DNA from: Odiellus spinosus
Lineage: Eukaryota; Arthropoda; Arachnida; Opiliones; Phalangiidae
Reading direction: 5' to 3'
NCBI GenBank assembly: GCA_963920705.1
Contig: OY987225.1
Coordinates: 11,194,158-11,258,157, forward strand
Length of the DNA: 64,000 nucleotides
The stretch's first letter is position 1; every line of letters begins with the position of its first letter. The translations under genes were made by a program, and so were the position numbers. A model generated the notes under the pieces. The model had not been told where the DNA came from and did no database searches. It was given only the letters and a program-made list of their open reading frames with translations. Of the stretch, positions 34,271 through 64,000 are shown piece after piece.

Positions 34271-35630
34271 GAAAAACGTGATTCAAAAACGTGATTCGAA
34301 AAACGTGATTCGAAAAACGTGATTCGAAAAACGTGATTCGAAAAACGTGATTCGATAAACGTGATTCGAAAAACGTGATTCGAAAATCGAGATTCGAAAA
34401 ACATGATTCGAAAAACGTGATTCGAAAAACGAGATTCGAAAAACGTGATTCGAAAAACGTCATTCGAAAAACGTGATTCGAAAAACGTCATTCGAAAAAC
34501 GTCATTCGAAAAACGTCATTCGAAAAACGTCATTCGAAAAACGTCATTCGAAAAACGTCATTCGAAAAACGTCATTCGAAAAACATCATTCGAAAAACGT
34601 CATTCGAAAAACGTCATTCGAAAAACTTGATTCGAAAAACGGGATTCGAAAAACGTGATTCGATAAACGTGATTCGAAAAACGTGATTCGAAAAACGTGA
34701 TTCGAAAAACGTGATTCGAAAAACGAGATTTGAAAAACGTGATTCGAAAAACGTGATTCGAAAAACGTGGTTCGAAAAACGTGATTCGAAAAACGTGATT
34801 CGAAAAACGTGATTCGAAAAACGTGGTTCGAAAAACGATGTTCGAAAAACGTGGTTCGAAAAACGTGATTCGAAAAACGTGATTCGAAAACTAGATTCGA
34901 AAAACGTGATTCGAAAAACGAGGTTCGAAGGAAGTGGTTCGAAAAACGTGGTTCGAAAAACGTGGTTCGAAAAACGTGATTCGAAAAACGTGATTCGAAA
35001 AACGTCATTCGAAAAACGTGATTCGAAAAACGTCATTCGAAAAACGTCATTCGAAAAACGTCATTCGAAAAACGTCATTCGAAAAACGTCATTCGAAAAA
35101 CGTCATTCGAAAAACGTCATTCGAAAAACGTCATTCGAAAAACGTGATTCGAAAAACGCGATTCGAAAAACGTGATTCGATAAACGTGATTCGAAAAACG
35201 TGATTCGAAAAACGTGATTCGAAAAACGTGATTCGAAAAACGAGATTTGAAAAACGTGATTCGAAAAACGTGATTCGAAAAACGTGGTTCGAAAAACGTG
35301 GTTCGAAAAACGTGATTCGAAAAACGTGATTCGAAAACTAGATTCGAAAAACGTGATTCGAAAAACGAGGTTCGAAGAAAGTGGTTCGAAAAACGTGGTT
35401 CGAAAAACGTGGTTCGAAAAACGTGATTCGAAAAACGTGATTCGAAAAACGTGATTCGAAAAACGTGATTCGAAAAACGTGATTCGAAAAACGAGGTTCG
35501 AAGAAAGTGGTTCGAAAAACGTGGTTCGAAAAACGTGGTTCGAAAAACGTGATTCGAAAAACGTGATTCGAAAAACGTGATTCGAAAAACGTGATTCGAA
35601 AAACTTGGTTCGAAAAACGTGGTTCGAAGA
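33601..35630 (+). repeat. 2,041-bp module, second tandem copy
   Basis: It has the same order of landmarks as 31,560-33,600. Differences include CGCGATT for CGGGATT near 35,159, fewer CATCATT variants in the second GTCATT block, and an ACTAGGTTCG monomer at the end. A third relative at 46,958-48,559 is cut by the inversion and has a shorter first GTCATT block (about 6 monomers against 13). Confidence 0.85.
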
Positions 35631-37579
35631 ACTAGGTTCGAAAAACGTGATTCGAAAAACGTGATTCGAAAAACGTGATTTGAAAAACGTGATTCGAAAA
35701 ACGTCATTCGAAAAACGTGATTCGAAAAACGAGATTCGAAAAACGTGATTCGAAAAACGTGGTTCGAAAAACGTGGTTCGAAAAACGTGGTTCGAAAAAC
35801 GTGATTCGAAAAACGTGATTCGAAAAACGTGATTCGAAAAACGTGATTCGAAAAACGTGATTCGAAAACTAGATTCGAAAAACGTGATTCGAAAAACGAG
35901 GTTCGAAGGAAGTGGTTCGAAAAACGTGGTTCGAAAAACGTGGTTCGAAAAACGTGATTCGAAAAACGTGATTCGAAAAACGTGATTCGAAAAACGTGAT
36001 TCGAAAAACGTGATTTGAAAAACGTGATTCGAAAAACGTGATTCGAAAAGCGTGATTCGAAAAACGTGATTCGAAAAACGTCAGTCGAAAAACGTCATTC
36101 GAAAAACGTGATTCGAAAAACGTCATTCGAAAAACGTGATTCGAAAAACGTCATTCGAAAAACGTGATTCGAAAAACGTCATTCGAAAAACGTGATTCGA
36201 AAAACGTGGTTCGAAAAACGTCATTCGAAAAACGTCATTCGAAAAACGTCATTCGAAAAACGTCATTCGAAAAACGTCATTCGAAAAACGTCATTCGAAA
36301 AACGTCATTCGAAAAACGTGATTCGAAAAACGGGATTCGAAAAACGTGATTCGATAAACGTGATTCGAAAAACGTGATTCGAAAAACGTGATTCGAAAAA
36401 CGTGATTCGAAAAACGAGATTTGAAAAACGTGATTCGAAAAACGTGATTCGAAAAACGTGGTTCGAAAAACGTGGTTCGAAAAACGTGATTCGAAAAACG
36501 TGATTCGAAAAACGTGATTCGAAAAACGTGATTCGAAAAACGTGATTTGAAACGTGATTCGAAAAACGTGATTCGAAAAGCGTGATTCGAAAAACGTGAT
36601 TCGAAAAACGTCAGTCGAAAAATGTCATTCGAAAAACGTGATTCGAAAAACGTCATTCGAAAAACGTGATTCGAAAAACGTCATACGAAAAACGTGATTC
36701 GAAAAACGTCATTCGAAAAACGTCATTCGAAAAACGTCATTCGAAAAACGTCATTCGAAAAACGTCATTCGAAAAACGTCATTCGAAAAACGTCATTCGA
36801 AAAACGTCATTCGAAAAACTTGATTCGAAAAACGGGATTCGAAAAACGTGATTCGATAAACGTGATTCGAATAACGTGATTCGAAAAACGTGATTCGAAA
36901 AACGTGATTCGAAAAACGAGATTTGAAAAACGTGATTCGAAAAACGTGATTCGAAAAACGTGGTTCGAAAAACGTGATTCGAAAAACGTGATTCGAAAAA
37001 CGTGATTCGAAAAACGTGGTTCGAAAAACGATGTTCGAAAAACGTGGTTATAAAAACGTGATTCGAAAAACGTGATTCGAAAACTAGATTCGAAAAACGT
37101 GATTCGAAAAACGTGATTCGAAAAACGTCATTCGAAAAACGTGATTCGAAAAACGTCATTCAAAAAACGTGATTCGAAAAACGTCATTCGAAAAACGTCA
37201 TTCGAAAAACGTCATTCGAAAAACGTCATTCGAAAAACGTCATTCGAAAAACGTCATTCGAAAAACGTCATTCGAAAAACGTCATTCGAAAAACGTCATT
37301 CGAAAAACGTGATTCGAAAAACGTGATTCGAAAAACGTGATTCGATAAACGTGATTCGAAAAACGTGATTCGAAAAACGTGATTCGAAAAACGTGATTCG
37401 AAAAACGAGATTTGAAAAACGTGATTCGAAAAACGTGATTCGAAAAACGTGGTTCGAAAAACGTAGTTCGAAAAACGTGATTCGAAAAACGTGATTCGAA
37501 AACTAGATTCGAAAAACGTGATTCGAAAAACGAGGTTCGAAGAAAGTGGTTCGAAAAACGTGGTTCGAAAAACGTGGTT

Positions 37580-40560
37580 CAAAAAACGTGATTCGAAAAA
37601 CGTGATTCGAAAAACGTGATTCGAAAAACGTGATTCGAAAAACGTGATTCGAAAAACGAGGTTCGAAGAAAGTGGTTCGAAAAACGTGGTTCGAAAAACG
37701 TGGTTCGAAAAACGTGATTCGAAAAACGTGATTCGAAAAACGTGATTCGAAAAACGTGATTCGAAAAACTTGGTTCGAAAAACGTGGTTCGAAAAACGAG
37801 GTTCGAAAAACGTGATTCGAAAAACGTGATTCGAAAAACGTGATTTGAAAAACGTGATTCGAAAAACGTCATTCGAAAAACGTGATTCGAAAAACGAGAT
37901 TCGAAAAACGAGATTCGAAAAACGAGATTCGAAAAACGTAATTCGAAAAACGTGATTCGAAAAACGTGACTCGAAAAACGTGATTCGAAAAACGTGATTC
38001 GAAAAACGTGACTCGAAAAACGTGATTCGAAAAACGTGATTCGAAAAACGTGGTTCGAAAAACGTGATTCGAAAAACGTGATTCGAAAAACGTGATTCGA
38101 AAAACGTGATTCGAAAAACGAGATTTGAAAAACGTGATTCGAAAAACGTGATTCGAAAAACGTGGTTCGAAAAACGTGATTCGAAAAACGTGATTCGAAA
38201 AACGTGGTTCGAAAAACGTGGTTCGAAAAACGTGGTTCGAAAAACGTGATTCGAAAAACGTCATTCGAAAAACGTGATTCGAAAAACGTCATTCGAAAAA
38301 CGTGATTCGAAAAACGTGGTTCGAAAAACGTGATTCGAAAAACGTGATTCGAAAAACGTGATTCGAAAAACGAGGTTCGAAGAAAGTGGTTCGAAAAACG
38401 TGGTTCGAAAAACGTGATTCGAAAAACGTGGTTCGAAAAACGTGATTCGAAAAACGTGATTCGAAAAACGTGATTCGAAAAACGTGATTCGAAAAACGTG
38501 GTTCGAAAAACGTGGTTCGAAAAACGTGATTCGAAAAACGTGATTCGAAAAACGTGATTCGAAAAACGTGATTCGAAAAACGTGATTCGAAAACTAGATT
38601 CGAAAAACGTGATTCGAAAAACGAGGTTCGAAGGAAGTGATTCGAAAAACGTGATTCGAAAAACGTGATTCGAAAAACGTGATTCGAAAAACGTGATTTG
38701 AAAAACGTGATTCGAAAAACGTGATTCGAAAAACGTGATTCGAAAAACGAGATTTGAAAAACGTGATTCGAAAAACGTGATTCGAAAAACGTGGTTCGAA
38801 AAACGTGATTCGAAAAACGTGATTCGAAAAACGTGATTCGAAAAACGTGGTTCGAAAAACGATGTTCGAAAAACGTGGTTCGAAAAACGTGATTCGAAAA
38901 ACGTGATTCGAAAACTAGATTCGAAAAACGTGATTCGAAAAACGAGGTTCGAAGGAAGTGGTTCGAAAAACGTGGTTCGAAAAACGTGGTTCGAAAAACG
39001 TGATTCGAAAAACGTGATTCGAAAAACGTGATTCGAAAAACGTGATTCGAAAAACGTGATTTGAAAAACGTGATTCGAAAAACGTGATTCGAAAAACGTC
39101 AGTCGAAAAACGTCATTCGAAAAACGTGATTCGAAAAACGTCATTCGAAAAACGTGATTCGAAAAACGTCATTCGAAAAACGTGATTCAAAAAACTTCAT
39201 TCGAAAAACGTCATTCGAAAAACGTCATTCGAAAAACCTCATTCGAAAAACGTCATTCGAAAAACGTCATTCGAAAAACGTCATTCGAAAAACGTCATTC
39301 GAAAAACGTCATTCGAAAAACGTGATTCGAAAAACGGGATTCGAAAAACGTGATTCGATAAACGTGATTCGAAAAACGTGATTCGAAAAACGTGATTCGA
39401 AAAACGTGATTCGAAAAACGTGATTCGAAAAACGTGATTCGAAAAACGTGATTCGATAAACGTGATTCGAAAAACGTGATTCGAAAAACGTGATTCGAAA
39501 AACGTGATTCGAAAAACTTGATTCGAAAAACGTGATTCGAAAAACGTGATTCGAAAAACGTGGTTCGAAAAACGTGATTCGAAAAACGTGATTCGAAAAA
39601 CGTGGTTCGAAAAACGTGATTCGAAAAACGTGATTCGAAAAACGTGGTTCGAAAAACGTGGTTCGAAAAACGTGGTTCGAAAAACGTGATTCGAAAAACG
39701 TGATTCGAAAAACGTGATTCGAAAAGCGTGATTCGAAAAACGTGATTCGAAACTAGATTCGAAAAACGTGATTCGAAAAACGAGGTTCGAAGGAAGTGGT
39801 TCGAAAAACGTGGTTCGAAAAACGTGATTCGAAAAACGTGATTCGAAAAACGTGATTCGAAAAACGTGATTCGAAAAACGTGATTTGAAAAACGTGATTC
39901 GAAAAACGTGATTCGAAAAACGTGATTCGAAAAACGTGATTCGAAAAACGTGATTCGAAAAACGTGATTCGAAAAACGTGATTCGAAAAGCGTGATTCGA
40001 AAAACGTGATTCGAAACTAGATTCGAAAAACGTGATTCGAAAAACGAGGTTCGAAGGAAGTGGTTCGAAAAACGTGGTTCGAAAAACGTGATTCGAAAAA
40101 CGTGATTCGAAAAACGTGATTCGAAAAACGTGATTCGAAAAACGTGATTCGAAAAACGTGATTCGAAAAACGTGATTCGAAAAACGTGATTCGAAAAACG
40201 TGATTCGAAAAACGAGATTTGAAAAACGTGATTCGAACAACGTGATTCGAAAAACGTGGTTCGAAAAACGTGATTCGAAAAACGTGATTCGAAAAACGTG
40301 GTTCGAAAAACGTGGTACGAAAAACGTGGTTCGAAAAACGTGATTCGAAAAACGTGATTCGAAAAACGTGATTCGAAAAACGTGATTCGAAAAACGTGAT
40401 TCGAAAACTAGATTCGAAAAACGTGATTCGAAAAACGAGGTTCGAAGGAAGTGGTTCGAAAAACGTGGTTCGAAAAACGTGGTTCGAAAAACGTGATTCG
40501 AAAAACGTAATTCGAAAAACGTGATTCGAAAAACGTGATTCGAAAAACGTGATTTGAAAA
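37580..40560 (+). repeat. Segment repeated 5.0 kb downstream (first copy)
   Basis: It matches about 42,590-45,545: GTCAGTCG (39,098/44,141, offset 5,043) and 12-bp CTAG monomers (39,751/44,751 and 40,015/45,015, offset 5,000). Its first part (about 37,100-38,700) also matches 40,630-42,240 at an offset of 3,533 bp, so at least two overlapping duplication events are recorded here. Confidence 0.78.
39746..39766 (+). repeat. Shortened CTAG monomer, 12-bp form (example)
   Basis: ATTCGAAACTAG is two bases shorter than the standard unit. The 13-bp form ATTCGAAAACTAG is the usual one across domain B. The 12-bp form is found at about 39,746, 40,010, 44,746 and 45,010, and inverted near 51,003, 51,270, 53,979, 54,255, 58,893 and 59,159. 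Other short monomers: TTTGAAACG near 36,547 (inverted near 62,321), TTCAAAAACG near 32,243, 34,284 and 47,641, and simple one-A losses near 15,275, 17,806, 18,603, 19,428, 20,155 and 25,489. Confidence 0.85.
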
Positions 40561-42589
40561 ACGTGATTCGAAAAACGTGATTTGAAAAACGTGATTCGAA
40601 AAACGTGATTCGAAAACTAGATTCGAAAAACGTGATTCGAAAAACGTGATTCGAAAAACGTCATTCGAAAAACGTGATTCGAAAAACGTCATTCAAAAAA
40701 CGTGATTCGAAAAACGTCATTCGAAAAACGTCATTCGAAAAACGTCATTCGAAAAACGTCATTCGAAAAACGTCATTCGAAAAACGTCATTCGAAAAACG
40801 TCATTCGAAAAACGTCATTCGAAAAACGTCATTCGAAAAACGTGATTCGAAAAACGTGATTCGAAAAACGTGATTCGATAAACGTGATTCGAAAAACGTG
40901 ATTCGAAAAACGTGATTCGAAAAACGTGATTCGAAAAACGAGATTTGAAAAACGTGATTCGAAAAACGTGATTCGAAAAACGTGGTTCGAAAAACGTAGT
41001 TCGAAAAACGTGATTCGAAAAACGTGATTCGAAAACTAGATTCGAAAAACGTGATTCGAAAAACGAGGTTCGAAGAAAGTGGTTCGAAAAACGTGGTTCG
41101 AAAAAAGTGGTTCAAAAAACGTGATTCGAAAAACGTGATTCGAAAAACGTGATTCGAAAAACGTGATTCGAAAAACGTGATTCGAAAAACGAGGTTCGAA
41201 GAAAGTGGTTCGAAAAACGTGGTTCGAAAAACGTGGTTCGAAAAACGTGATTCGAAAAACGTGATTCGAAAAACGTGATTCGAAAAACGTGATTCGAAAA
41301 ACTTGGTTCGAAAAACGTGGTTCGAAAAACGAGGTTCGAAAAACGTGATTCGAAAAACGTGATTCGAAAAACGTGATTTGAAAAACGTGATTCGAAAAAC
41401 GTCATTCGAAAAACGTGATTCGAAAAACGAGATTCGAAAAACGAGATTCGAAAAACGAGATTCGAAAAACGTAATTCGAAAAACGTGATTCGAAAAACGT
41501 GACTCGAAAAACGTGATTCGAAAAACGTGATTCGAAAAACGTGACTCGAAAAACGTGATTCGAAAAACGTGATTCGAAAAACGTTGTTCGAAAAACGTGA
41601 TTCGAAAAACGTGATTCGAAAAACGTGATTCGAAAAACGTGATTCGAAAAACGTGGTTCGAAAAACGTGATTCGAAAAACGTGATTCGAAAAACGTGATT
41701 CGAAAAACGTGATTCGAAAAACGTGATTCGAAAAACGAGGTTCGAAGAAAGTGGTTCGAAAAACGTGGTTCGAAAAACGTGATTCGAAAAACGTGGTTCG
41801 AAAAACGTGATTCGAAAAACGTGATTCGAAAAACGTGATTCGAAAAACGTGATTCGAAAAACGTGGTTCGAAAAACGTGGTTCGAAAAACGTGATTCGAA
41901 AAACGTGATTCGAAAAACGTGATTCGAAAAACGTGATTCGAAAAACGTGATTCGAAAACTAGATTCGAAAAACGTGATTCGAAAAACGAGGTTCGAAGGA
42001 AGTGATTCGAAAAACGTGATTCGAAAAACGTGATTCGAAAAACGTGATTCGAAAAACGTGATTTGAAAAACGTGATTCGAAAAACGTGATTCGAAAAACG
42101 TGATTCGAAAAACGAGATTTGAAAAACGTGATTCGAAAAACATGATTCGAAAAACGTGATTCGAAAAACGAGGTTCGAAGGAAGTGATTCGAAAAACGTG
42201 ATTCGAAAAACGTGATTCGAAAAACGTGATTCGAAAAACGTGATTTGAAAAACGTGATTCGAAAAACGTGATTCGAAAAACGTGATTCGAAAAACGAGAT
42301 TTGAAAAACGTGATTCGAAAAACGTGATTCGAAAAACGAGATTTGAAAAACGTGATTCGAAAAACATGATTCGAAAAACGTGGTTCGAAAAACGTGATTC
42401 GAAAAACATGATTCGAAAAACGTGATTCGAAAAACGTGATTCGAAAAACGTGGTTCGAAAAACGATGTTCGAAAAACGTGGTTCGAAAAACGTGATTCGA
42501 AAAACGTGATTAGAAAACTAGATTCGAAAAACGTGATTCGAAAAACGAGGTTCGAAGGAAGTGGTTCGAAAAACGTGGTTCGAAAAACG

Positions 42590-45545
42590 TGGTTCGAAAA
42601 ACGTGATTCGAAAAACGTGATTCGAAAAACGTGATTCGAAAAACGTGATTCGAAAAACGTCAGTCGAAAAACGTCATTCGAAAAACGTGATTCGAAAAAC
42701 GTCATTCGAAAAACGTGATTCGAAAAACGTCATTCGAAAAACGTGATTCAAAAAACTTCATTCGAAAAACGTCATTCGAAAAACGTCATTCGAAAAACGT
42801 CATTCGAAAAACGTCACTCGAAAAACGTCATTCGAAAAACGTCATTCGAAAAACGTCATTCGAAAAACGTCATTCGAAAAACGTGATTCGAAAAACGGGA
42901 TTCGAAAAACGTGATTCGATAAACGTGATTCGAAAAACGTGATTCGAAAAACGTGATTCGAAAAACGTGATTCGAAAAACGTGATTCGAAAAACGTGATT
43001 CGAAAAACGTGATTCGATAAACGTGATTCGAAAAACGTGATTCGAAAAACGTGATTCGAAAAACGTGATTCGAAAAACTTGATTCGAAAAACGTGATTCG
43101 AAAAACGTGATTCGAAAAACGAGATTTGAAAAACGTGATTCGAAAAACGTGATTCGAAAAACGTGGTTCGAAAAACGTGATTCGAAAAACGTGATTCGAA
43201 AAACGTGGTTCGAAAAACGTGGTTCGAAAAACGTGGTTCGAAAAACGTGATTCGAAAAACGTCATTCGAAAAACGTGATTCGAAAAACGTCATTTGAAAA
43301 ACGTGATTCGAAAAACGTGGTTCGAAAAACGTGATTCGAAAAACGTGATTCGAAAAACGTGATTCGAAAAACGAGGTTCGAAGAAAGTGGTTCGAAAAAC
43401 GTGATTCGAAAAACGAGGTTCGAAGAAAGTGGTTCGAAAAACGTGGTTCGAAAAACGTGATTCGAAAAACGTGGTTCGAAAAACGTGATTCGAAAAACGT
43501 GATTCGAAAAACGTGATTCGAAAAACGTGATTCGAAAAACGTGGTTCGAAAAACGTGGTTCGAAAAACGTGATTCGAAAAACGTGATTCGAAAAACGTGA
43601 TTCGAAAAACGTGATTCGAAAAACGTGATTCGAAAACTAGATTCGAAAAACGTGATTCGAAAAACGAGGTTCGAAGGAAGTGATTCGAAAAACGTGATTC
43701 GAAAAACGTGATTCGAAAAACGTGATTCGAAAAACGTGATTTGAAAAACGTGATTCGAAAAACGTGATTCGAAAAACGTGATTCGAAAAACGAGATTTGA
43801 AAAACGTGATTCGAAAAACGTGATTCGAAAAACGTGGTTCGAAAAACGTGATTCGAAAAACGTGATTCGAAAAACGTGATTCGAAAAACGTGGTTCGAAA
43901 AACGATGTTCGAAAAACGTGGTTCGAAAAACGTGATTCGAAAAACGTGATTCGAAAACTAGATTCGAAAAACGTGATTCGAAAAACGAGGTTCGAAGGAA
44001 GTGGTTCGAAAAACGTGGTTCGAAAAACGTGGTTCGAAAAACGTGATTCGAAAAACGTGATTCGAAAAACGTGATTCGAAAAACGTGATTCGAAAAACGT
44101 GATTTGAAAAACGTGATTCGAAAAACGTGATTCGAAAAACGTCAGTCGAAAAACGTCATTCGAAAAACGTGATTCGAAAAACGTCATTCGAAAAACGTGA
44201 TTCGAAAAACGTCATTCGAAAAACGTGATTCAAAAAACTTCATTCGAAAAACGTCATTCGAAAAACGTCATTCGAAAAACGTCATTCGAAAACGTCATTC
44301 GAAAAACGTCATTCGAAAAACGTCATTCGAAAAACGTCATTCGAAAAACGTCATTCGAAAAACGTGATTCGAAAAACGGGATTCGAAAAACGTGATTCGA
44401 TAAACGTGATTCGAAAAACGTGATTCGAAAAACGTGATTCGAAAAACGTGATTCGAAAAACGTGATTCGAAAAACGTGATTCGAAAAACGTGATTCGATA
44501 AACGTGATTCGAAAAACGTGATTCGAAAAACGTGATTCGAAAAACGTGATTCGAAAAACTTGATTCGAAAAACGTGATTCGAAAAACGTGATTCGAAAAA
44601 CGTGGTTCGAAAAACGTGATTCGAAAAACGTGATTCGAAAAACGTGGTTCGAAAAACGTGGTTCGAAAAACGTGGTTCGAAAAACGTGATTCGAAAAACG
44701 TGATTCGAAAAACGTGATTCGAAAAGCGTGATTCGAAAAACGTGATTCGAAACTAGATTCGAAAAACGTGATTCGAAAAACGAGGTTCGAAGGAAGTGGT
44801 TCGAAAAACGTGGTTCGAAAAACGTGATTCGAAAAACGTGATTCGAAAAACGTGATTCGAAAAACGTGATTCGAAAAACGTGATTTGAAAAACGTGATTC
44901 GAAAAACGTGATTCGAAAAACGTGATTCGAAAAACGTGATTCGAAAAACGTGATTCGAAAAACGTGATTCGAAAAACGTGATTCGAAAAGCGTGATTCGA
45001 AAAACGTGATTCGAAACTAGATTCGAAAAACGTGATTCGAAAAACGAGGTTCGAAGGAAGTGGTTCGAAAAACGTGGTTCGAAAAACGTGATTCGAAAAA
45101 CGTGATTCGAAAAACGTGATTCGAAAAACGTGATTCGAAAAACGTGATTTGAAAAACGTGATTCGAAAAACGTGATTCGAAAAACGTGATTCGAAAAACG
45201 TGATTCGAAAAACGAGATTTGAAAAACGTGATTCGAAAAACGTGATTCGAAAAACGTGGTTCGAAAAACGTGATTCGAAAAACGTGATTCGAAAAACGTG
45301 GTTCGAAAAACGTGGTACGAAAAACGTGGTTCGAAAAACGTGATTCGAAAAACGTGATTCGAAAAACGTGATTCGAAAAACGTGATTCGAAAACTAGATT
45401 CGAAAAACGTGATTCGAAAAACGAGGTTCGAAGGAAGTGGTTCGAAAAACGTGGTTCGAAAAACGTGGTTCGAAAAACGTGATTCGAAAAACGTGATTCG
45501 AAAAACGTGATTCGAAAAACGTGATTCGAAAAACGTGATTTGAAA
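42590..45545 (+). repeat. Segment repeated 5.0 kb upstream (second copy)
   Basis: Partner of 37,580-40,560. It has a private 13-bp GTCATT monomer near 44,285 that is also present, inverted, near 51,727 and 54,725. That private deletion confirms this copy, not the 37.6-kb one, is the left-arm source matching the duplicated right-arm segment. Confidence 0.78.
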
Positions 45546-46631
45546 AACGTGATTCGAAAAACGTGATTCGAAAAACGTGATTCGAAAAACGTGATTCGAA
45601 AAACGTCAGTCGAAAAACGTCATTCGAAAAACGTGATTCGAAAAACGTCATTCGAAAAACGTGATTCGAAAAACGTGATTCGAAAAACGTGATTCGAAAA
45701 ACGTGATTCGAAAAACGTGATTTGAAAAACGTGATTCGAAAAACGTGATTCGAAAAACGTGGTTCGAAAAACGTGATTCAAAAAACGTGATTCGAAAAAC
45801 GTGATTCGAAAAACGTGATTCGAAAAACGTGGTTCGAAAAACGTGATTCGAAAAACGTGATTCGAAAAACGTGATTCGAAAAACGAGGTTCGAAGAAAGT
45901 GGTTCGAAAAACGTGGTTCGAAAAACGTGATTCGAAAAACGTGGTTCGAAAAACGTGATTCGAAAAACGTGATTCGAAAAACGTGATTCGAAAAACGTGA
46001 TTCGAAAAACGTGGTTCGAAAAACGTGGTTCGAAAAACGAGGTTCGAAAAACGTGATTCGAAAAACGTGATTCGAAAAACGTGATTTGAAAAACGTGATT
46101 CGAAAAACGTCATTCGAAAAACGTGATTCGAAAAACGAGATTCGAAAAACGAGATTCGAAAAACGAGATTCGAAAAACGTGATTCGAAAAACGTGATTCG
46201 AAAAACGTGACTCGAAAAACGTGATTCGAAAAACGTGATTCGAAAAGCGTGACTCGAAAAACGTGATTCGAAAAACGTGATTCGAAAAACGTGGTTCGAA
46301 AAACGTGATTCGAAAAACGTGATTCGAAAAACGTGATTCGAAAAACGTGGTTCGAAAAACGTGGTTCGAAAAACGAGGTTCGAAAAACGTGATTCGAAAA
46401 ACGTGATTCGAAAAACGTGATTTGAAAAACGTGATTCGAAAAACGAGATTCGAAAAACGAGATTCGAAAAACGAGATTCGAAAAACGTGATTCGAAAAAC
46501 GTGATTCGAAAAACGTGACTCGAAAAACGTGATTCGAAAAACGTGATTCGAAAAACGTGACTCGAAAAACGTGATTCGAAAAACGTGATTCGAAAAACGT
46601 GATTCGAAAAACGTGATTCGAAAAACGTGAT

Positions 46632-47645
46632 TCGAGTTACGTGATTCGAATAGCGTGATTCGAAAAGCGTTTTTCGAAAAACGTGATTCGAGTAGCGTGA
46701 TTCGAAAAACGTGACTCGAAAAACGTGATTCGAAAAACGTGATTCGAAAAACGTGATTCGAAAAACGTGATTCGAGTTACGTGATTCGAATAGCGTGATT
46801 CGAAAAGCGTGATTCGAAAAGCGTGATTCAAAAAACGTGATTCGAATAGCGTGATTCGAAAAGCTTGATTCGAAAAACATGATTCGAATAACATGATTCG
46901 AATAGCATGATTCGAATAGCATGATTCGAAAAACATGATTCGAAAAACATGATTCGAAAAACGTGATTCGAAAAGCGTGATTCGAAAAGCGTGATTCGAA
47001 AAACGTGATTCGAAAAACGTGATTCGAAAAACGTGATTCGAAAAACGTGATTCGAAAAACGTGATTCGAAAAGCGTGATTCGAAAAGCGTGATTCGAAAA
47101 TTGTGATTCGAAAAACGTGATTCGAAAAGAGTGATTCCAAAAGCGTGATTCGAAAAACGTGATTCGAAAAACGTGATTCGAATAACGTGATTCGATTAGC
47201 GTGTTTCGAAAAGCGTGATTCGAAAAACGTGATTCAAATAGCGTGATTCGAAAAACGTGATTCGAAAAACGTGACTCGAAAAGCGTGATACGAAAAGCGT
47301 GATTCGAAAAACGTGATTCGAAAAACGTGATTCGAAAAACGTGATTCGAAAAGCGTGATTCGAAAAGCGTGATTCGAAAAGCGTGATTCGAAAAACGTGA
47401 TTCGAATAACGTGATTCGAATAGCGTGATTCGAATAGCGTGATTCGAAAAGCTTTATTCGAAAAACGTGATTCAAATAGCGTGATTCGAAAAACGTGATT
47501 CGAAAAACGTGATTCGAAAAGCGTGATTCGAAAAACGTGATTCGAAAAACGTGATTCGAAAAACGTGATTCGAAAAACGTGATTCGAAAAGCGTGATTCG
47601 AAAAGCGTGATTCGAAAAACGTGATTCGAAAAACGTGATTCAAAA
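46632..47645 (+). repeat. A-like island inside domain B (3)
   Basis: This island matches island 1 at an offset of 15,398 bp. It opens with two CGAGTTACG monomers 140 bp apart (46,631 and 46,771), a small 10-monomer duplication. It carries the AAGCTT and AATAGCATG run at about 46,860-46,920. The inversion maps inside this island: its mirror image starts at the junction. Confidence 0.82.
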
Positions 47646-48559
47646 ACGTGATTCGAAAAACGTGATTCGAAAAACGTGATTCGAAAAACGTGATTCGAAA
47701 AACGTGATTCGATAAACGTGATTCGAAAAACGTGATTCGAAAATCGAGATTCGAAAAACATGATTCGAAAAACGTGATTCGAAAAACGAGATTCGAAAAA
47801 CGTGATTCGAAAAACGTCATTCAAAAAACGTCATTCGAAAAACGTCATTCGAAAAACGTCATTCGAAAAACGTCATTCGAAAAACGTCATTCGAAAAACT
47901 TGATTCGAAAAACGGGATTCAAAAAACGTGATTCGATAAACGTGATTCGAAAAACGTGATTCGAAAAACGTGATTCGAAAAACGTGATTCGAAAAACGAG
48001 ATTTGAAAAACGTGATTCGAAAAACGTGATTCGAAAAACGTGGTTCGAAAAACGTGATTCGAAAAACGTGATTCGAAAAACGTGATTCGAAAAACGTGGT
48101 TCGAAAAACGATGTTCGAAAAACGTGGTTCGAAAAACGTGATTCGAAAAACGTGATTCGAAAACTAGATTCGAAAAACGTGATTCGAAAAACGAGGTTCG
48201 AAGGAAGTGGTTCGAAAAACGTGGTTCGAAAAACGTGGTTCGAAAAACGTGATTCGAAAAACGTGATTCGAAAAACGTGATTCGAAAAACGTGATTCGAA
48301 AAAAGTGATTTGAAAAACGTGATTCGAAAAACGTGATTCGAAAAACGTCAGTCGAAAAACGTCATTCGAAAAACGTGATTCGAAAAACGTCATTCGAAAA
48401 ACGTGATTCGAAAAACGTCATTCGAAAAACGTGATTCGAAAAACTTCATTCGAAAAACGTCATTCGAAAAACGTCATTCGAAAAACGTCACTCGAAAAAC
48501 GTCATTCGAAAAACGTCATTCGAAAAACGTCATTCGAAAAACGTGATTCGAAAAACGGG
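47450..48559 (+). other. Spacer between the inverted-repeat arms
   Basis: About 1.1 kb of plus-oriented satellite has no mirrored partner next to the junction. It continues the module seen at about 32,052-33,160 and 34,093-35,150: the GCTTTATT monomer (47,451), CTTGATT plus CGGGATT (47,895 on), the CTAG signature (48,163) and a GTCATT block (48,345-48,540). Its last monomer before the flip is the CGGGATT type, which in the other copies also follows a GTCATT block. The left side is therefore collinear with its relatives up to the flip. Confidence 0.85.
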
Positions 48560-48585
48560 ATTCGAATCACGTTTTTCGAATCACG
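48542..48585. other. Orientation-flip junction
   Basis: Plus-oriented monomers end and minus-oriented monomers begin within GATTCGAATC at 48,559-48,568; ATTCGAAT (48,560-48,567) belongs equally to both strands. The surrounding 44 bp form a palindrome with one mismatched pair (48,558 G against 48,569 A). No extra bases are inserted, and the 14-bp register is preserved through the shared TTCGAA. This is the only change of array orientation in the window. Confidence 0.95.
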
Positions 48586-49400: not shown

Positions 49401-50205
49401 TTCGAATCACGTTTTTCGAATCACGTTTTTCGAATCACGTTTTTCGAGTCACGTTTTTCGAATCACGTTTTTCGAATCACGTTTTTCGAGTCACGTTTTT
49501 CGAATCACGTTTTTCGAATCACGTTTTTCGAATCTCGTTTTTCGAATCTCGTTTTTCGAATCTCGTTTTTCGAATCACGTTTTTCAAATCACGTTTTTCG
49601 AATCACGTTTTTCGAATCACGTTTTTCGAACCTCGTTTTTCGAACCACGTTTTTCGAACCACGTTTTTCGAATCACGTTTTTCGAATCACGTTTTTCGAA
49701 TCACGTTTTTCGAACCACGTTTTTCGAATCACGTTTTTCGAATCACGTTTTTCGAGTCACGCTTTTCGAATCACGTTTTTCGAATCACGTTTTTCGAGTC
49801 ACGTTTTTCGAATCACGTTTTTCGAATCACGTTTTTCGAATCTCGTTTTTCGAATCTCGTTTTTCGAATCTCGTTTTTCGAATCACGTTTTTCGAATGAC
49901 GTTTTTCGAATCACGTTTTTCAAATCACGTTTTTCGAATCACGTTTTTCGAATCACGTTTTTCGAACCTCGTTTTTCGAACCACGTTTTTCGAACCACGT
50001 TTTTCGAATCACGTTTTTCGAATCACGTTTTTCGAATCACGTTTTTCGAATCACGTTTTTCGAACCACGTTTTTCGAATCACGTTTTTCGAACCACGTTT
50101 TTCGAACCACTTTCTTCGAACCTCGTTTTTCGAATCACGTTTTTCGAATCACGTTTTTCGAATCACGTTTTTCGAACCACGTTTTTCGAATCACGTTTTT
50201 CGAAT

Positions 50206-53118
50206 CACGTTTTTCGAATCACGTTTTTTGAATCACGTTTTTCGAACCACGTTTTTCGAATCACGTTTTTCGAATCACGTTTTTCAAATCACGTTTTTCG
50301 AATCACGTTTTTCGAATCACGTTTTTCGAATCACGTTTTTCGAATCACGTTTTTCGAATGACGTTTTTCGAATCACGTTTTTCGAATGACGTTTTTCGAC
50401 TGACGTTTTTCGAATCACGTTTTTCGAATCACGTTTTTCGAATCACGTTTTTCGAATCACGTTTTTCAAATCACGTTTTTCGAATCACGTTTTTCGAATC
50501 ACGTTTTTCGAATCACGTTTTTCGAATCACGTTTTTCGAACCACGTTTTTCGAACCACGTTTTTCGAACCACTTCCTTCGAACCTCGTTTTTCGAATCAC
50601 GTTTTTCGAATCTAGTTTTCGAATCACGTTTTTCGAATCACGTTTTTCGAATCACGTTTTTCGAATCACGTTTTTCGAATCACGTTTTTCGAACCACGTT
50701 TTTCGTACCACGTTTTTCGAACCACGTTTTTCGAATCACGTTTTTCGAATCACGTTTTTCGAACCACGTTTTTCGAATCACGTTTTTCGAATCACGTTTT
50801 TCAAATCTCGTTTTTCGAATCACGTTTTTCGAATCACGTTTTTCGAATCACGTTTTTCGAATCACGTTTTTCAAATCACGTTTTTCGAATCACGTTTTTC
50901 GAATCACGTTTTTCGAATCACGTTTTTCGAATCACGTTTTTCGAACCACGTTTTTCGAACCACTTCCTTCGAACCTCGTTTTTCGAATCACGTTTTTCGA
51001 ATCTAGTTTCGAATCACGTTTTTCGAATCACGCTTTTCGAATCACGTTTTTCGAATCACGTTTTTCGAATCACGTTTTTCGAATCACGTTTTTCGAATCA
51101 CGTTTTTCGAATCACGTTTTTCGAATCACGTTTTTCAAATCACGTTTTTCGAATCACGTTTTTCGAATCACGTTTTTCGAATCACGTTTTTCGAATCACG
51201 TTTTTCGAACCACGTTTTTCGAACCACTTCCTTCGAACCTCGTTTTTCGAATCACGTTTTTCGAATCTAGTTTCGAATCACGTTTTTCGAATCACGCTTT
51301 TCGAATCACGTTTTTCGAATCACGTTTTTCGAATCACGTTTTTCGAACCACGTTTTTCGAACCACGTTTTTCGAACCACGTTTTTCGAATCACGTTTTTC
51401 GAATCACGTTTTTCGAACCACGTTTTTCGAATCACGTTTTTCGAATCACGTTTTTCGAATCAAGTTTTTCGAATCACGTTTTTCGAATCACGTTTTTCGA
51501 ATCACGTTTTTCGAATCACGTTTATCGAATCACGTTTTTCGAATCACGTTTTTCGAATCACGTTTTTCGAATCACGTTTTTCGAATCACGTTTTTCGAAT
51601 CACGTTTTTCGAATCACGTTTATCGAATCACGTTTTTCGAATCCCGTTTTTCGAATCACGTTTTTCGAATGACGTTTTTCGAATGACGTTTTTCGAATGA
51701 CGTTTTTCGAATGACGTTTTTCGAATGACGTTTTCGAATGACGTTTTTCGAATGACGTTTTTCGAATGACGTTTTTCGAATGAAGTTTTTTGAATCACGT
51801 TTTTCGAATGACGTTTTTCGAATCACGTTTTTCGAATGACGTTTTTCGAATCACGTTTTTCGAATGACGTTTTTCGACTGACGTTTTTCGAATCACGTTT
51901 TTCGAATCACGTTTTTCAAATCACGTTTTTCGAATCACGTTTTTCGAATCACGTTTTTCGAATCACGTTTTTCGAATCACGTTTTTCGAACCACGTTTTT
52001 CGAACCACGTTTTTCGAACCACTTCCTTCGAACCTCGTTTTTCGAATCACGTTTTTCGAATCTAGTTTTCGAATCACGTTTTTCGAATCACGTTTTTCGA
52101 ACCACGTTTTTCGAACATCGTTTTTCGAACCACGTTTTTCGAATCACGTTTTTCGAATCACGTTTTTCGAATCACGTTTTTCGAACCACGTTTTTCGAAT
52201 CACGTTTTTCGAATCACGTTTTTCAAATCTCGTTTTTCGAATCACGTTTTTCGAATCACGTTTTTCGAATCACGTTTTTCAAATCACGTTTTTCGAATCA
52301 CGTTTTTCGAATCACGTTTTTCGAATCACGTTTTTCGAATCACTTCCTTCGAACCTCGTTTTTCGAATCACGTTTTTCGAATCTAGTTTTCGAATCACGT
52401 TTTTCGAATCACGTTTTTCGAATCACGTTTTTCGAATCACGTTTTTCGAATCACGTTTTTCGAACCACGTTTTTCGAACCACGTTTTTCGAATCACGTTT
52501 TTCGAATCACGTTTTTCGAATCACGTTTTTCGAATCACGTTTTTCGAACCACGTTTTTCGAATCACGTTTTTCGAACCACGTTTTTCGAACCACTTTCTT
52601 CGAACCTCGTTTTTCGAATCACGTTTTTCGAATCACGTTTTTCGAATCACGTTTTTCGAACCACGTTTTTCGAATCACGTTTTTCAAATGACGTTTTTCG
52701 AATCACGTTTTTCGAATGACGTTTTTCGAATCACGTTTTTCGAACCACGTTTTTCGAACCACGTTTTTCGAACCACGTTTTTCGAATCACGTTTTTCGAA
52801 TCACGTTTTTCGAACCACGTTTTTCGAATCACGTTTTTCGAATCACGTTTTTCAAATCTCGTTTTTCGAATCACGTTTTTCGAATCACGTTTTTCGAATC
52901 AAGTTTTTCGAATCACGTTTTTCGAATCACGTTTTTCGAATCACGTTTTTCGAATCACGTTTATCGAATCACGTTTTTCGAATCACGTTTTTCGAATCAC
53001 GTTTTTCGAATCACGTTTTTCGAATCACGTTTTTCGAATCACGTTTTTCGAATCACGTTTATCGAATCACGTTTTTCGAATCCCGTTTTTCGAATCACGT
53101 TTTTCGAATGACGTTTTT
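50206..53118 (-). repeat. Right-arm segmental duplication, first copy
   Basis: This segment carries the same ordered landmarks as 53,180-56,106, at an offset of 2,974 bp near the start (GTTTTTTGAATC at 50,226 and 53,200) and 2,988 bp later (51,836 against 54,824; 52,716 against 55,704). The 14-bp change in offset is one monomer. Together the copies correspond to a single left-arm segment, about 42,860-45,803. The copy ends at a GAATGACG/GACTGACG junction near 53,118, which resembles 51,876 rather than the arm's expected continuation, so the edge looks recombinant. Confidence 0.85.
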
Positions 53119-53179
53119 CGACTGACGTTTTTCGAATCACGTTTTTCGAATCACGTTTTTCAAATCACGTTTTTCGAAT

Positions 53180-56106
53180 CACGTTTTTCGAATCACGTTT
53201 TTTGAATCACGTTTTTCGAACCACGTTTTTCGAATCACGTTTTTCGAATCACGTTTTTCAAATCACGTTTTTCGAATCACGTTTTTCGAATCACGTTTTT
53301 CGAATCACGTTTTTCGAATCACGTTTTTCGAATGACGTTTTTCGAATCACGTTTTTCGAATGACGTTTTTCGACTGACGTTTTTCGAATCACGTTTTTCG
53401 AATCACGTTTTTCGAATCACGTTTTTCGAATCACGTTTTTCAAATCACGTTTTTCGAATCACGTTTTTCGAATCACGTTTTTCGAATCACGTTTTTCGAA
53501 TCACGTTTTTCGAACCACGTTTTTCGAACCACGTTTTTCGAACCACTTCCTTCGAACCTCGTTTTTCGAATCACGTTTTTCGAATCTAGTTTTCGAATCA
53601 CGTTTTTCGAATCACGTTTTTCGAATCACGTTTTTCGAATCACGTTTTTCGAATCACGTTTTTCGAACCACGTTTTTCGTACCACGTTTTTCGAACCACG
53701 TTTTTCGAATCACGTTTTTCGAATCACGTTTTTCGAACCACGTTTTTCGAATCACGTTTTTCGAATCACGTTTTTCAAATCTCGTTTTTCGAATCACGTT
53801 TTTCGAATCACGTTTTTCGAATCACGTTTTTCGAATCACGTTTTTCAAATCACGTTTTTCGAATCACGTTTTTCGAATCACGTTTTTCGAATCACGTTTT
53901 TCGAATCACGTTTTTCGAACCACGTTTTTCGAACCACTTCCTTCGAACCTCGTTTTTCGAATCACGTTTTTCGAATCTAGTTTCGAATCACGTTTTTCGA
54001 ATCACGCTTTTCGAATCACGTTTTTCGAATCACGTTTTTCGAATCACGTTTTTCGAATCACGTTTTTCGAATCACGTTTTTCGAATCACGTTTTTCGAAT
54101 CACGTTTTTCGAATCACGTTTTTCAAATCACGTTTTTCGAATCACGTTTTTCGAATCACGTTTTTCGAATCACGTTTTTCGAATCACGTTTTTCGAACCA
54201 CGTTTTTCGAACCACTTCCTTCGAACCTCGTTTTTCGAATCACGTTTTTCGAATCTAGTTTCGAATCACGTTTTTCGAATCACGCTTTTCGAATCACGTT
54301 TTTCGAATCACGTTTTTCGAATCACGTTTTTCGAACCACGTTTTTCGAACCACGTTTTTCGAACCACGTTTTTCGAATCACGTTTTTCGAATCACGTTTT
54401 TCGAACCACGTTTTTCGAATCACGTTTTTCGAATCACGTTTTTCGAATCAAGTTTTTCGAATCACGTTTTTCGAATCACGTTTTTCGAATCACGTTTTTC
54501 GAATCACGTTTATCGAATCACGTTTTTCGAATCACGTTTTTCGAATCACGTTTTTCGAATCACGTTTTTCGAATCACGTTTTTCGAATCACGTTTTTCGA
54601 ATCACGTTTATCGAATCACGTTTTTCGAATCCCGTTTTTCGAATCACGTTTTTCGAATGACGTTTTTCGAATGACGTTTTTCGAATGACGTTTTTCGAAT
54701 GACGTTTTTCGAATGACGTTTTCGAATGACGTTTTTCGAATGACGTTTTTCGAATGACGTTTTTCGAATGAAGTTTTTTGAATCACGTTTTTCGAATGAC
54801 GTTTTTCGAATCACGTTTTTCGAATGACGTTTTTCGAATCACGTTTTTCGAATGACGTTTTTCGACTGACGTTTTTCGAATCACGTTTTTCGAATCACGT
54901 TTTTCAAATCACGTTTTTCGAATCACGTTTTTCGAATCACGTTTTTCGAATCACGTTTTTCGAATCACGTTTTTCGAACCACGTTTTTCGAACCACGTTT
55001 TTCGAACCACTTCCTTCGAACCTCGTTTTTCGAATCACGTTTTTCGAATCTAGTTTTCGAATCACGTTTTTCGAATCACGTTTTTCGAACCACGTTTTTC
55101 GAACATCGTTTTTCGAACCACGTTTTTCGAATCACGTTTTTCGAATCACGTTTTTCGAATCACGTTTTTCGAACCACGTTTTTCGAATCACGTTTTTCGA
55201 ATCACGTTTTTCAAATCTCGTTTTTCGAATCACGTTTTTCGAATCACGTTTTTCGAATCACGTTTTTCAAATCACGTTTTTCGAATCACGTTTTTCGAAT
55301 CACGTTTTTCGAATCACGTTTTTCGAATCACTTCCTTCGAACCTCGTTTTTCGAATCACGTTTTTCGAATCTAGTTTTCGAATCACGTTTTTCGAATCAC
55401 GTTTTTCGAATCACGTTTTTCGAATCACGTTTTTCGAATCACGTTTTTCGAACCACGTTTTTCGAACCACGTTTTTCGAATCACGTTTTTCGAATCACGT
55501 TTTTCGAATCACGTTTTTCGAATCACGTTTTTCGAACCACGTTTTTCGAATCACGTTTTTCGAACCACGTTTTTCGAACCACTTTCTTCGAACCTCGTTT
55601 TTCGAATCACGTTTTTCGAATCACGTTTTTCGAATCACGTTTTTCGAACCACGTTTTTCGAATCACGTTTTTCAAATGACGTTTTTCGAATCACGTTTTT
55701 CGAATGACGTTTTTCGAATCACGTTTTTCGAACCACGTTTTTCGAACCACGTTTTTCGAACCACGTTTTTCGAATCACGTTTTTCGAATCACGTTTTTCG
55801 AACCACGTTTTTCGAATCACGTTTTTCGAATCACGTTTTTCAAATCTCGTTTTTCGAATCACGTTTTTCGAATCACGTTTTTCGAATCAAGTTTTTCGAA
55901 TCACGTTTTTCGAATCACGTTTTTCGAATCACGTTTTTCGAATCACGTTTATCGAATCACGTTTTTCGAATCACGTTTTTCGAATCACGTTTTTCGAATC
56001 ACGTTTTTCGAATCACGTTTTTCGAATCACGTTTTTCGAATCACGTTTATCGAATCACGTTTTTCGAATCCCGTTTTTCGAATCACGTTTTTCGAATGAC
56101 GTTTTT
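53180..56106 (-). repeat. Right-arm segmental duplication, second copy
   Basis: This is a near-identical repeat of 50,206-53,118. Unlike the first copy it runs into the block of consecutive GAATGACG monomers at 56,095-56,205, which matches the left-arm order. About 60 bp (53,119-53,179) bridge the copies. Confidence 0.85.
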
Positions 56107-59100: not shown

Positions 59101-62100
59101 CACGTTTTTCGAACCACTTCCTTCGAACCTCGTTTTTCGAATCACGTTTTTCGAATCTAGTTTCGAATCACGTTTTTCGAATCACGCTTTTCGAATCACG
59201 TTTTTCGAATCACGTTTTTCGAATCACGTTTTTCGAACCACGTTTTTCGAACCACGTTTTTCGAACCACGTTTTTCGAATCACGTTTTTCGAATCACGTT
59301 TTTCGAACCACGTTTTTCGAATCACGTTTTTCGAATCACGTTTTTCGAATCAAGTTTTTCGAATCACGTTTTTCGAATCACGTTTTTCGAATCACGTTTT
59401 TCGAATCACGTTTATCGAATCACGTTTTTCGAATCACGTTTTTCGAATCACGTTTTTCGAATCACGTTTTTCGAATCACGTTTTTCGAATCACGTTTTTC
59501 GAATCACGTTTATCGAATCACGTTTTTCGAATCCCGTTTTTCGAATCACGTTTTTCGAATGACGTTTTTCGAATGACGTTTTTCGAATGACGTTTTTCGA
59601 ATGACGTTTTTCGAATGACGTTTTTCGAATGAGGTTTTTCGAATGACGTTTTTCGAATGACGTTTTTCGAATGAAGTTTTTTGAATCACGTTTTTCGAAT
59701 GACGTTTTTCGAATCACGTTTTTCGAATGACGTTTTTCGAATCACGTTTTTCGAATGACGTTTTTCGACTGACGTTTTTCGAATCACGTTTTTCGAATCA
59801 CGTTTTTCAAATCACGTTTTTCGAATCACGTTTTTCGAATCACGTTTTTCGAATCACGTTTTTCGAATCACGTTTTTCGAACCACGTTTTTCGAACCACG
59901 TTTTTCGAACCACTTCCTTCGAACCTCGTTTTTCGAATCACGTTTTTCGAATCTAGTTTTCGAATCACGTTTTTCGAATCACGTTTTTCGAACCACGTTT
60001 TTCGAACATCGTTTTTCGAACCACGTTTTTCGAATCACGTTTTTCGAATCACGTTTTTCGAATCACGTTTTTCGAACCACGTTTTTCGAATCACGTTTTT
60101 CGAATCACGTTTTTCAAATCTCGTTTTTCGAATCACGTTTTTCGAATCACGTTTTTCGAATCACGTTTTTCAAATCACGTTTTTCGAATCACGTTTTTCG
60201 AATCACGTTTTTCGAATCACGTTTTTCGAATCACTTCCTTCGAACCTCGTTTTTCGAATCACGTTTTTCGAATCTAGTTTTCGAATCACGTTTTTCGAAT
60301 CACGTTTTTCGAATCACGTTTTTCGAATCACGTTTTTCGAATCACGTTTTTCGAACCACGTTTTTCGAACCACGTTTTTCGAATCACGTTTTTCGAATCA
60401 CGTTTTTCGAATCACGTTTTTCGAATCACGTTTTTCGAACCACGTTTTTCGAATCACGTTTTTCGAACCACGTTTTTCGAACCACTTTCTTCGAACCTCG
60501 TTTTTCGAATCACGTTTTTCGAATCACGTTTTTCGAATCACGTTTTTCGAACCACGTTTTTCGAATCACGTTTTTCGAATGACGTTTTTCGAATCACGTT
60601 TTTCGAATGACGTTTTTCGAATCACGTTTTTCGAACCACGTTTTTCGAACCACGTTTTTCGAACCACGTTTTTCGAATCACGTTTTTCGAATCACGTTTT
60701 TCGAACCACGTTTTTCGAATCACGTTTTTCGAATCACGTTTTTCAAATCTCGTTTTTCGAATCACGTTTTTCGAATCACGTTTTTCGAATCACGTTTTTC
60801 GAATCACGTTTTTCGAACCACGTTTTTCGAATCACGTTTTTCGAATCACGTTTTTCGAGTCACGTTTTTCGAATCACGTTTTTCGAATCACGTTTTTCGA
60901 GTCACGTTTTTCGAATCACGTTTTTCGAATTACGTTTTTCGAATCTCGTTTTTCGAATCTCGTTTTTCGAATCTCGTTTTTCGAATCACGTTTTTCGAAT
61001 GACGTTTTTCGAATCACGTTTTTCAAATCACGTTTTTCGAATCACGTTTTTCGAATCACGTTTTTCGAACCTCGTTTTTCGAACCACGTTTTTCGAACCA
61101 AGTTTTTCGAATCACGTTTTTCGAATCACGTTTTTCGAATCACGTTTTTCGAATCACGTTTTTCGAACCACGTTTTTCGAACCACGTTTTTCGAACCACT
61201 TTCTTCGAACCTCGTTTTTCGAATCACGTTTTTCGAATCACGTTTTTCGAATCACGTTTTTCGAATCACGTTTTTCGAATCACGTTTTTTGAACCACGTT
61301 TTTCGAACCACGTTTTTCGAACCACTTTCTTCGAACCTCGTTTTTCGAATCACGTTTTTCGAATCTAGTTTTCGAATCACGTTTTTCGAATCACGTTTTT
61401 CGAACTACGTTTTTCGAACCACGTTTTTCGAATCACGTTTTTCGAATCACGTTTTTCAAATCTCGTTTTTCGAATCACGTTTTTCGAATCACGTTTTTCG
61501 AATCACGTTTTTCGAATCACGTTTATCGAATCACGTTTTTCGAATCACGTTTTTCGAATCACGTTTTTCGAATGACGTTTTTCGAATGACGTTTTTCGAA
61601 TGACGTTTTTCGAATGACGTTTTTCGAATGACGTTTTTCGAATGACGTTTTTCGAATGACGTTTTTCGAATGACGTTTTTCGAATGACGTTTTTCGAATC
61701 ACGTTTTTTGAATGACGTTTTTCGAATCACGTTTTTCGAATGACGTTTTTCGAATCACGTTTTTCGAATCACGTTTTTCGAATCTAGTTTTCGAATCACG
61801 TTTTTCGAATCACGTTTTTATAACCACGTTTTTCGAACATCGTTTTTCGAACCACGTTTTTCGAATCACGTTTTTCGAATCACGTTTTTCGAATCACGTT
61901 TTTCGAACCACGTTTTTCGAATCACGTTTTTCGAATCACGTTTTTCAAATCTCGTTTTTCGAATCACGTTTTTCGAATCACGTTTTTCGAATCACGTTAT
62001 TCGAATCACGTTTATCGAATCACGTTTTTCGAATCCCGTTTTTCGAATCAAGTTTTTCGAATGACGTTTTTCGAATGACGTTTTTCGAATGACGTTTTTC

Positions 62101-64000
62101 GAATGACGTTTTTCGAATGACGTTTTTCGAATGACGTTTTTCGAATGACGTTTTTCGAATGACGTTTTTCGAATCACGTTTTTCGTATGACGTTTTTCGA
62201 ATCACGTTTTTCGAATGACGTTTTTCGAATCACGTTTTTCGAATGACGTTTTTCGACTGACGTTTTTCGAATCACGTTTTTCGAATCACGCTTTTCGAAT
62301 CACGTTTTTCGAATCACGTTTCAAATCACGTTTTTCGAATCACGTTTTTCGAATCACGTTTTTCGAATCACGTTTTTCGAATCACGTTTTTCGAACCACG
62401 TTTTTCGAACCACGTTTTTCGAATCACGTTTTTCGAATCACGTTTTTCAAATCTCGTTTTTCGAATCACGTTTTTCGAATCACGTTTTTCGAATCACGTT
62501 TTTCGAATCACGTTTATCGAATCACGTTTTTCGAATCCCGTTTTTCGAATCACGTTTTTCGAATGACGTTTTTCGAATGACGTTTTTCGAATGACGTTTT
62601 TCGAATGACGTTTTTCGAATGACGTTTTTCGAATGACGTTTTTCGAATGACGTTTTTCGAACCACGTTTTTCGAATCACGTTTTTCGAATGACGTTTTTC
62701 GAATCACGTTTTTCGAATGACGTTTTTCGAATCACGTTTTTCGAATGACGTTTTTCGAATCACGTTTTTCGAATGACGTTTTTCGACTGACGTTTTTCGA
62801 ATCACGTTTTTCGAATCACGCTTTTCGAATCACGTTTTTCGAATCACGTTTTTCAAATCACGTTTTTCGAATCACGTTTTTCGAATCACGTTTTTCGAAT
62901 CACGTTTTTCGAATCACGTTTTTCGAACCACGTTTTTCGAACCACGTTTTTCGAACCACTTCCTTCGAACCTCGTTTTTCGAATCACGTTTTTCGAATCT
63001 AGTTTTCGAATCACGTTTTTCGAATCACGTTTTTCGAATCACGTTTTTCGAATCACGTTTTTCGAATCACGTTTTTCGAACCACGTTTTTCGAACCACGT
63101 TTTTCGAACCACGTTTTTCGAATCACGTTTTTCGAATCTCGTTTTTCGAATCACGTTTTTCGAATGACGTTTTTCGAATCACGTTTTTCAAATCACGTTT
63201 TTCGAATCACGTTTTTCGAATCACGTTTTTCGAACCTAGTTCTTCGAACCACGTTTTTCGAACCAAGTTTTTCGAATCACGTTTTTCGAATCACGTTTTT
63301 CGAATCACGTTTTTCGAATCACGTTTTTCGAACCACGTTTTTCGAACCACGTTTTTCGAACCACTTTCTTCGAACCTCGTTTTTCGAATCACGTTTTTCG
63401 AATCACGTTTTTCGAATCACGTTTTTCGAATCACGTTTTTCGAATCACGTTTTTCGAACCACGTTTTTCGAACCACGTTTTTCGAACCACTTTCTTCGAA
63501 CCTCGTTTTTCGAATCACGTTTTTCGAATCTAGTTTTCGAATCACGTTTTTCGAATCACGTTTTTCGAACCACGTTTTTCGAACCACGTTTTTCGAATCA
63601 CGTTTTTCGAATCACGTTTTTCAAATCTCGTTTTTCGAATCACGTTTTTCGAATCACGTTTTTCGAATCACGTTTTTCGAATCACGTTTATCGAATCACG
63701 TTTTTCGAATCGCGTTTTTCGAATCACGTTTTTCGAATGACGTTTTTCGAATGACGTTTTTCGAATGACGTTTTTCGAATGACGTTTTTCGAATGACGTT
63801 TTTCAAATGACGTTTTTCGAATGACGTTTTTCGAATGACGTTTTTCGAATCACGTTTTTCGAATGACGTTTTTCGAATCACGTTTTTCGAATCACGTTTT
63901 TCGAACCACGTTTTTCGAACCACGTTTTTCGAACCACTTCCTTCGAACCTCGTTTTTCGAATCACGTTTTTCGAATCTAGTTTTCGAATCACGTTTTTCG

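Follow-up and report, generated by a model that had tools for sequence, protein, structure and literature searches.

A mirrored satellite array in Odiellus spinosus ends at a second inverted repeat: a possible record of a two-ended fold-back

We describe a large inverted repeat in a 14-bp satellite array of Odiellus spinosus, together with a second inverted repeat, outside the satellite, which starts within about 1 bp of the place where the first one ends. Judged from the sequence, the simplest reading of the two, to which we give an even chance, is that one break occurred, that both of its ends folded back and were copied, and that they were then joined to each other. Fold-back duplication as such is known, and the present case would be a variant of it; a pair of fold-backs with one common junction at a satellite edge was not found in published literature.

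The window, i.e. the whole analysed stretch of 64,000 nucleotides, corresponds to positions 11,194,158-11,258,157 of contig OY987225.1 (C1) in an assembly of 443 Mb and 286 contigs. Window numbering is carried past 64,000 into the 200 kb downstream, and the C1 position equals 11,194,157 plus the coordinate. According to TRF, forward-strand copies of the 14-bp unit AAAACGTGATTCGA occupy positions 1-48,560. They are part of a satellite array of about 533 kb, of which about 482 kb lie in one orientation and the following 51 kb are reversed, with continuity assumed across C1:10,788,640-11,068,134. The array starts near C1:10,760,645 and ends at about 99,413 (C1:11,293,570). Base skew reverses at the strand switch (48,561-48,574), where TRF calls the forward satellite as far as 48,608 and the reverse satellite from 48,561 onwards. 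Among the matches listed for eight-monomer runs on C1, all 74 left of the switch are on the plus strand and all six right of it on the minus strand, so that one strand switch is seen among them.

At the left of the array (C1:10,760,645-10,774,000) the variant unit AAAAGCATGATTCGA predominates, and the window consists mostly of AAAACGTGATTCGA. Eight-monomer runs in the forward array at C1:11,098,105-11,125,435 return at steps of about 5 kb and smaller, a periodicity that suggests higher-order repeats. Short and very uniform arrays of the 14-bp unit are also present at C1:8,118,360-8,118,880 (about 36 copies, ending in TTTGAA variants on either side) and on contig C4 (827,356-827,677 and 845,316); the large array may have come from them or have given rise to them. 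Literature searches for the satellite by phrase returned unrelated work only, and the unit searched as sequence letters gave no match. The right end of C1 carries TTAGG repeats. Elsewhere in the assembly, a 16,074 bp contig contains COX1, its frames being ordered, by eye, as in insects (ND2-COI-COII-ATP8-ATP6), which together with the TTAGG repeats indicates an arthropod; ARAGORN detected no tRNA on the examined piece of this contig. Several nuclear COX1 fragments are located on contig C17 (1.11, 2.96, 3.13, 4.24 and 4.38-4.39 Mb), some of them in opposite orientations, and are probably mitochondrial insertions into the nuclear genome that have themselves undergone duplication.

An inverted repeat with arms of at least 12.6 kb had been predicted in the satellite from the letters of the window, and comparison of the forward and reversed parts bears this out at a larger scale. 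The left arm of this first inverted repeat (IR1), called A, was delimited by shared 40-mers and alignment; it spans 10,874-47,436 on the forward strand (36.6 kb). The right arm, on the reverse strand, begins at 48,573, fills the rest of the window to 64,000 and extends 35 kb beyond it to about 99,413, reaching 50.8 kb in all. The entire reversed part of the array (48,573 to about 99,413) mirrors window positions 10,874-47,436. Inside the window, 34,871-47,436 pairs with 64,000-48,573, and the outermost paired positions add up to 98,871. The predicted arm start at 34,871 is thus matched exactly, and the predicted limit of 64,000 is the end of the window only; the actual arm end, looked for in the 200 kb downstream, is the one near 99,413, paired with about 10,874 on the left.

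All 2,024 40-mers that are unique in the forward and in the reverse part and shared between them are collinear in mirror order. Every one of them lies inside 10,868-47,436, with none left of 10,868 and none in the spacer. Two controls, with the sequence reversed without complementing or with the right part taken as written, gave no shared 40-mers. Alignment of the full arms, performed in four blocks, comprises 36,321 identities, 24 mismatches and 19 indel events, which fill 20 rows because an event of 462 bp is split. Identity over aligned bases is 99.93-99.95%, compared with a median of 0.881 (range 0.832-0.966) for random forward-forward 600-bp pairs (56 kept of 60 drawn). Six of the mismatches are situated at arm ends and one beside an ambiguously placed gap, which leaves 17 (99.95%). 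Of two 70-base arm markers, located at 25,842 and 46,765, the 443 Mb assembly contains exactly one plus-strand and one minus-strand copy each. If there was no gene conversion between the arms, a divergence of 0.05% would mean a recent event.

The indels are mostly multiples of 14, the exceptions among the large ones being those of 1,720, 6,685 and 2,946 bp. The right arm exceeds the left one in length because eight blocks of at least 154 bp, together about 14.4 kb, exist only on the right; no indel of this size adds sequence to the left arm. This one-sidedness (8 of 8) has a binomial p of 0.008, or 0.039 when the 70 bp indel is included (8 of 9). The original prediction had pointed to a duplication confined to the right arm, and the arm alignment does place a 2,946 bp block at 52,633-55,578 (reverse strand) in that arm only. 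The direction of change is less clear, and the sequence gives mixed indications as to left-arm loss or right-arm gain. The blocks are 89-99% alike to their neighbours. Seven of them entered a search for copies elsewhere in the array portion examined (the 2,946 bp block with its first 1,500 bp; the 6,685 bp block was left out): copies of at least 99% are present for the blocks of 154, 224, 462 and 2,946 bp, and none for those of 966, 1,274 and 1,720 bp. Deletion from the left arm by orientation-dependent loss is weakened as an explanation, as four of the seven blocks have such copies. Exact homology at the ends of the eight blocks is higher than in in-phase controls (P = 0.018), an excess driven by one 1,236 bp event.

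Spacer S (47,437-48,560) separates the arms by about 1.1 kb, as had been predicted. It is present in forward orientation only and has no unique 40-mer in common with the right arm; its best other match in the array portion examined is 97.3%, and we read it as the loop of a fold-back. The orientation switch, junction J1 (48,561-48,574), coincides with the satellite unit's TTCGAA core, which is identical on both strands. The reverse monomer at this position has no match to a left-arm partner; with the preceding forward monomer it forms a small palindrome centred on 48,563, in which 54 of 60 positions are paired.

A repeat scan of 99,001-264,000 revealed the second inverted repeat (IR2). Its left arm, X (99,412-105,654), starts where the reversed array stops; the right arm (110,001-116,243) is oriented opposite to X, and spacer Y (4,346 bp, between 105,654 and 110,001) would be the loop in a fold-back reading. 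The arms are 6,243 bp long and differ by four mismatches and no gaps, 6,239 of the 6,243 positions agreeing in mirror order. With IR2 beginning at the end of the right satellite arm, one fold-back becomes a pair with a common junction, J2, at 99,412 (C1:11,293,569); the joint of X and Y, J3, lies at 105,654 (C1:11,299,811). Junction homology is weak: J2 has about 1 bp and J3, judged by eye, 1-3 bp, and J1 lies inside the satellite, where homology is present at any position. In both repeats the arms are separated by a single-copy kilobase spacer (S, 1.1 kb; Y, 4.35 kb). Divergence is 18 differences in 36.3 kb for IR1 (17 by the stricter count) and 4 in 6.2 kb for IR2 (Fisher p = 0.55, a weak test with four differences).

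The joint at 105,654 cuts two mobile elements: the X side carries a truncated transposase gene, the Y side a truncated BEL/Pao gene. A frame at 109,673-110,239 is open across the inner edge of the right arm and has a weak Pfam match to DDE_Tnp_4 (E = 0.0024, below the curated cut-off). A third copy of this transposase region, at 240,683-241,766, is continuous over the edge between Y and the right arm (1,005 identities, 38 mismatches, 82 gap positions); compared with the X side, its identity in steps of 60 bp is 0.75-1.0 as far as 105,663 and drops to 0.18-0.35 thereafter. Spacer Y begins within the BEL/Pao gene, whose downstream frame contains Peptidase_A17 (Pfam, 3.5e-49) and a weak RVT_1 hit below the cut-off. 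A 94% copy on contig C2 matches from base 5 of Y, and its frame stays open over the whole 1.5 kb examined, which extends far to the upstream side of this base; among the matches listed for the first 1,546 bp of Y (40 of 62 candidates), the best one elsewhere is 94%. At the outer edge of the right arm (116,243), a copy on contig C3 is collinear across the edge, except for an insertion of about 190 bp with inverted ends. Near-identical places of the X edge are only the two IR2 arms among the matches listed (40 of 112 candidates). Since J3 cuts both genes and related copies run through both edges of the right arm, X is the derived copy.

The outer edge of IR2 (C1:11,310,400) is a TA at the place where the C3 copy carries its insertion, which we take to be MITE-like. 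Frames in the X arms, at 101,100-103,216 and 112,439-114,555, resemble, as we presume, capsid-type proteins of Polinton/adintovirus elements; a Pfam search of the two frames found no family for either. A direct tandem duplication of 4.19 kb, with 8 mismatches and 18 gap positions, occupies 151,808-160,181.

In the simplest reading of IR1 and IR2, a single break would have occurred at the satellite edge, and both broken ends would have folded back, with loops of 1.1 kb (S) and 4.35 kb (Y). Copying of the folded ends would have given the reversed satellite arm and X, and the two copied ends would have been joined to each other at 99,412. Repeats made in one event are predicted to be of indistinguishable divergence, as IR1 and IR2 are; as proof of one event the same age is open to the objection that gene conversion between the arms could equalise ages. 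Both spacers fall inside the range of human fold-back junction spacers given by Hermetz et al. 2014 (PMC3907307), which is 766-70,466 bp with a median of 3,428. The one-sided large indels are outside what this model predicts, nor does it account for the outer edge of X falling on the insertion site of the C3 copy.

Several other origins have to be weighed against the two-ended fold-back. Usual sequencing reads are far shorter than the IR1 arms. A single fold-back read, which the original prediction had considered as a cause, is untenable for arms of 37 and 51 kb that far exceed such reads and differ by base changes and kilobase indels. Simple inversion of half the array is excluded by the mirror order, because it would result in opposite orientation without it. 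ODIRA produces an inverted triplication with a further direct copy; it was rejected because neither of the two arm markers has a third copy, each being present once in each orientation in the assembly. The recent inverted duplication proposed originally remains the best reading, and among the mechanisms then named fold-back fits best. Fusion of broken sister chromatids, also named, does not hold: such U-type fusion leaves no spacer between the copies according to the relevant passages of PMC3907307 and PMC9199198, and spacers of 1.1 and 4.35 kb are present. Fold-back is favoured over it because the single-copy 1.1 kb spacer separates the arms. An assembly error that took both haplotypes of a single locus for the arms of each repeat, and joined them wrongly, head to head around an unresolved stretch, is unlikely, if worth serious consideration. 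Satellite arrays are known to misassemble (PMC13081366), a divergence of about 0.05% with indels is what two satellite haplotypes could show, and no separate alternative haplotype is seen: the two arm markers and, among the matches listed, the X edge are each found only in these two places. However, haplotype mixing needs three false joins, one of which (reversed A to X) would connect places adjacent in neither haplotype. No N stands at any junction, the sole N run in the 200 kb downstream being far outside the structure, and all 19 indels measure at least 14 bp, unlike base-level consensus noise.

One replicative path with template switches (MMBIR/FoSTeS), for which we see a rather poor chance, would likewise produce the observed order and the short homologies at the junctions. 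The fork would leave the array at S, switch strand 1.1 kb back and copy the array in reverse; it would then jump to the outer edge of X, copy X and switch back at Y. Local copy-and-paste events with multiple jumps are described for cancer genomes (PMC7025897). Such a path demands about 51 kb of copying (or 37 kb, should later growth have lengthened the right arm), followed by a jump and by another inversion that restores the original direction, whereas a two-ended break needs fewer special steps to account for both spacers; the two routes are indistinguishable in their end product. There is little probability that two unrelated inverted duplications of similar age came to be adjacent, by chance or through a fragile satellite edge. 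The flank does contain other duplications (the 4.19 kb tandem at 151,808 and several further inverted repeat pairs), but IR2 starts about 1 bp from the end of IR1 and the divergences do not differ. That IR2 is a transposon with long terminal inverted repeats, located at the array end by chance, is very improbable, even though X contains a transposon end and a transposase fragment, and at least 37 matches to that end exist elsewhere, several of them forming opposed pairs with about 7.5 kb between the members. These matches, at least 37 of them, stop at query 313-318 (116,012-116,017), while the IR2 arms extend 227 bp beyond the transposon end into flanking repeat DNA that is continued in the C3 copy, and their inner end cuts the transposase. 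We rejected this candidate, as the arms do not end at element ends.

The two-ended fold-back shares traits with several known systems. Human fold-back inverted duplications, in the sections of PMC3907307 that describe them, likewise have copies in mirror order and a single-copy (disomic) kilobase spacer. Their inverted copy leads into a telomere, a translocation or a ring, whereas in our case a second fold-back is joined to it and the chromosome goes on beyond. Inverted microhomology marks their junction of spacer and inversion; here J3 has 1-3 bp by eye, and J1 lies in the satellite, where any position has homology. In the break-induced foldback inversions of budding yeast, a break near inverted homology leads to a hairpin-capped end and an inverted duplication; these foldbacks are mostly stabilised by telomere capture or repeat recombination, and two joined fold-backs were not noticed in the accessible parts of the two sources (PMC10622511, PMC7467729). 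Cancer fold-back inversions (PMC7025897) can also adjoin another rearranged junction, there translocations. They are somatic and tied to breakage-fusion-bridge cycles; the present case belongs to an assembled genome, is of short range and shows no amplification. The macro-dyad symmetries of Tribolium, described in PMC13081366 as documented exclusively in that genus so far, resemble our array in that arthropod satellite subarrays lie in opposite orientation over tens of kb. They concern many arrays with conserved inversion sites, whereas here one switch is seen, and the arms are mirrored monomer by monomer and tied to flanking DNA.

The origin of strand switches and mirrored arms in satellite arrays is rarely visible, because arrays homogenise. 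In Odiellus spinosus the event is so recent that its three junctions, both loops and both pairs of arms can still be read, and the pair outside the satellite shows which copy is new. We tentatively propose, with somewhat less than even confidence, that a germline break at the satellite edge was repaired by fold-back of both ends, in which tens of kb were copied and the ends joined, and that the locus is a natural and heritable record of this repair. The same tens of kb of satellite, adjacent in both orientations, offer a natural test of the effect of orientation on repeat loss. If true, two-ended fold-back repair would have restored an unbroken chromosome and at the same time created a large palindrome-like satellite; satellite arrays would thereby have a direct way of gaining strand switches, and the event, if real, would tie satellite inversions to the repair of breaks in which both ends fold back.
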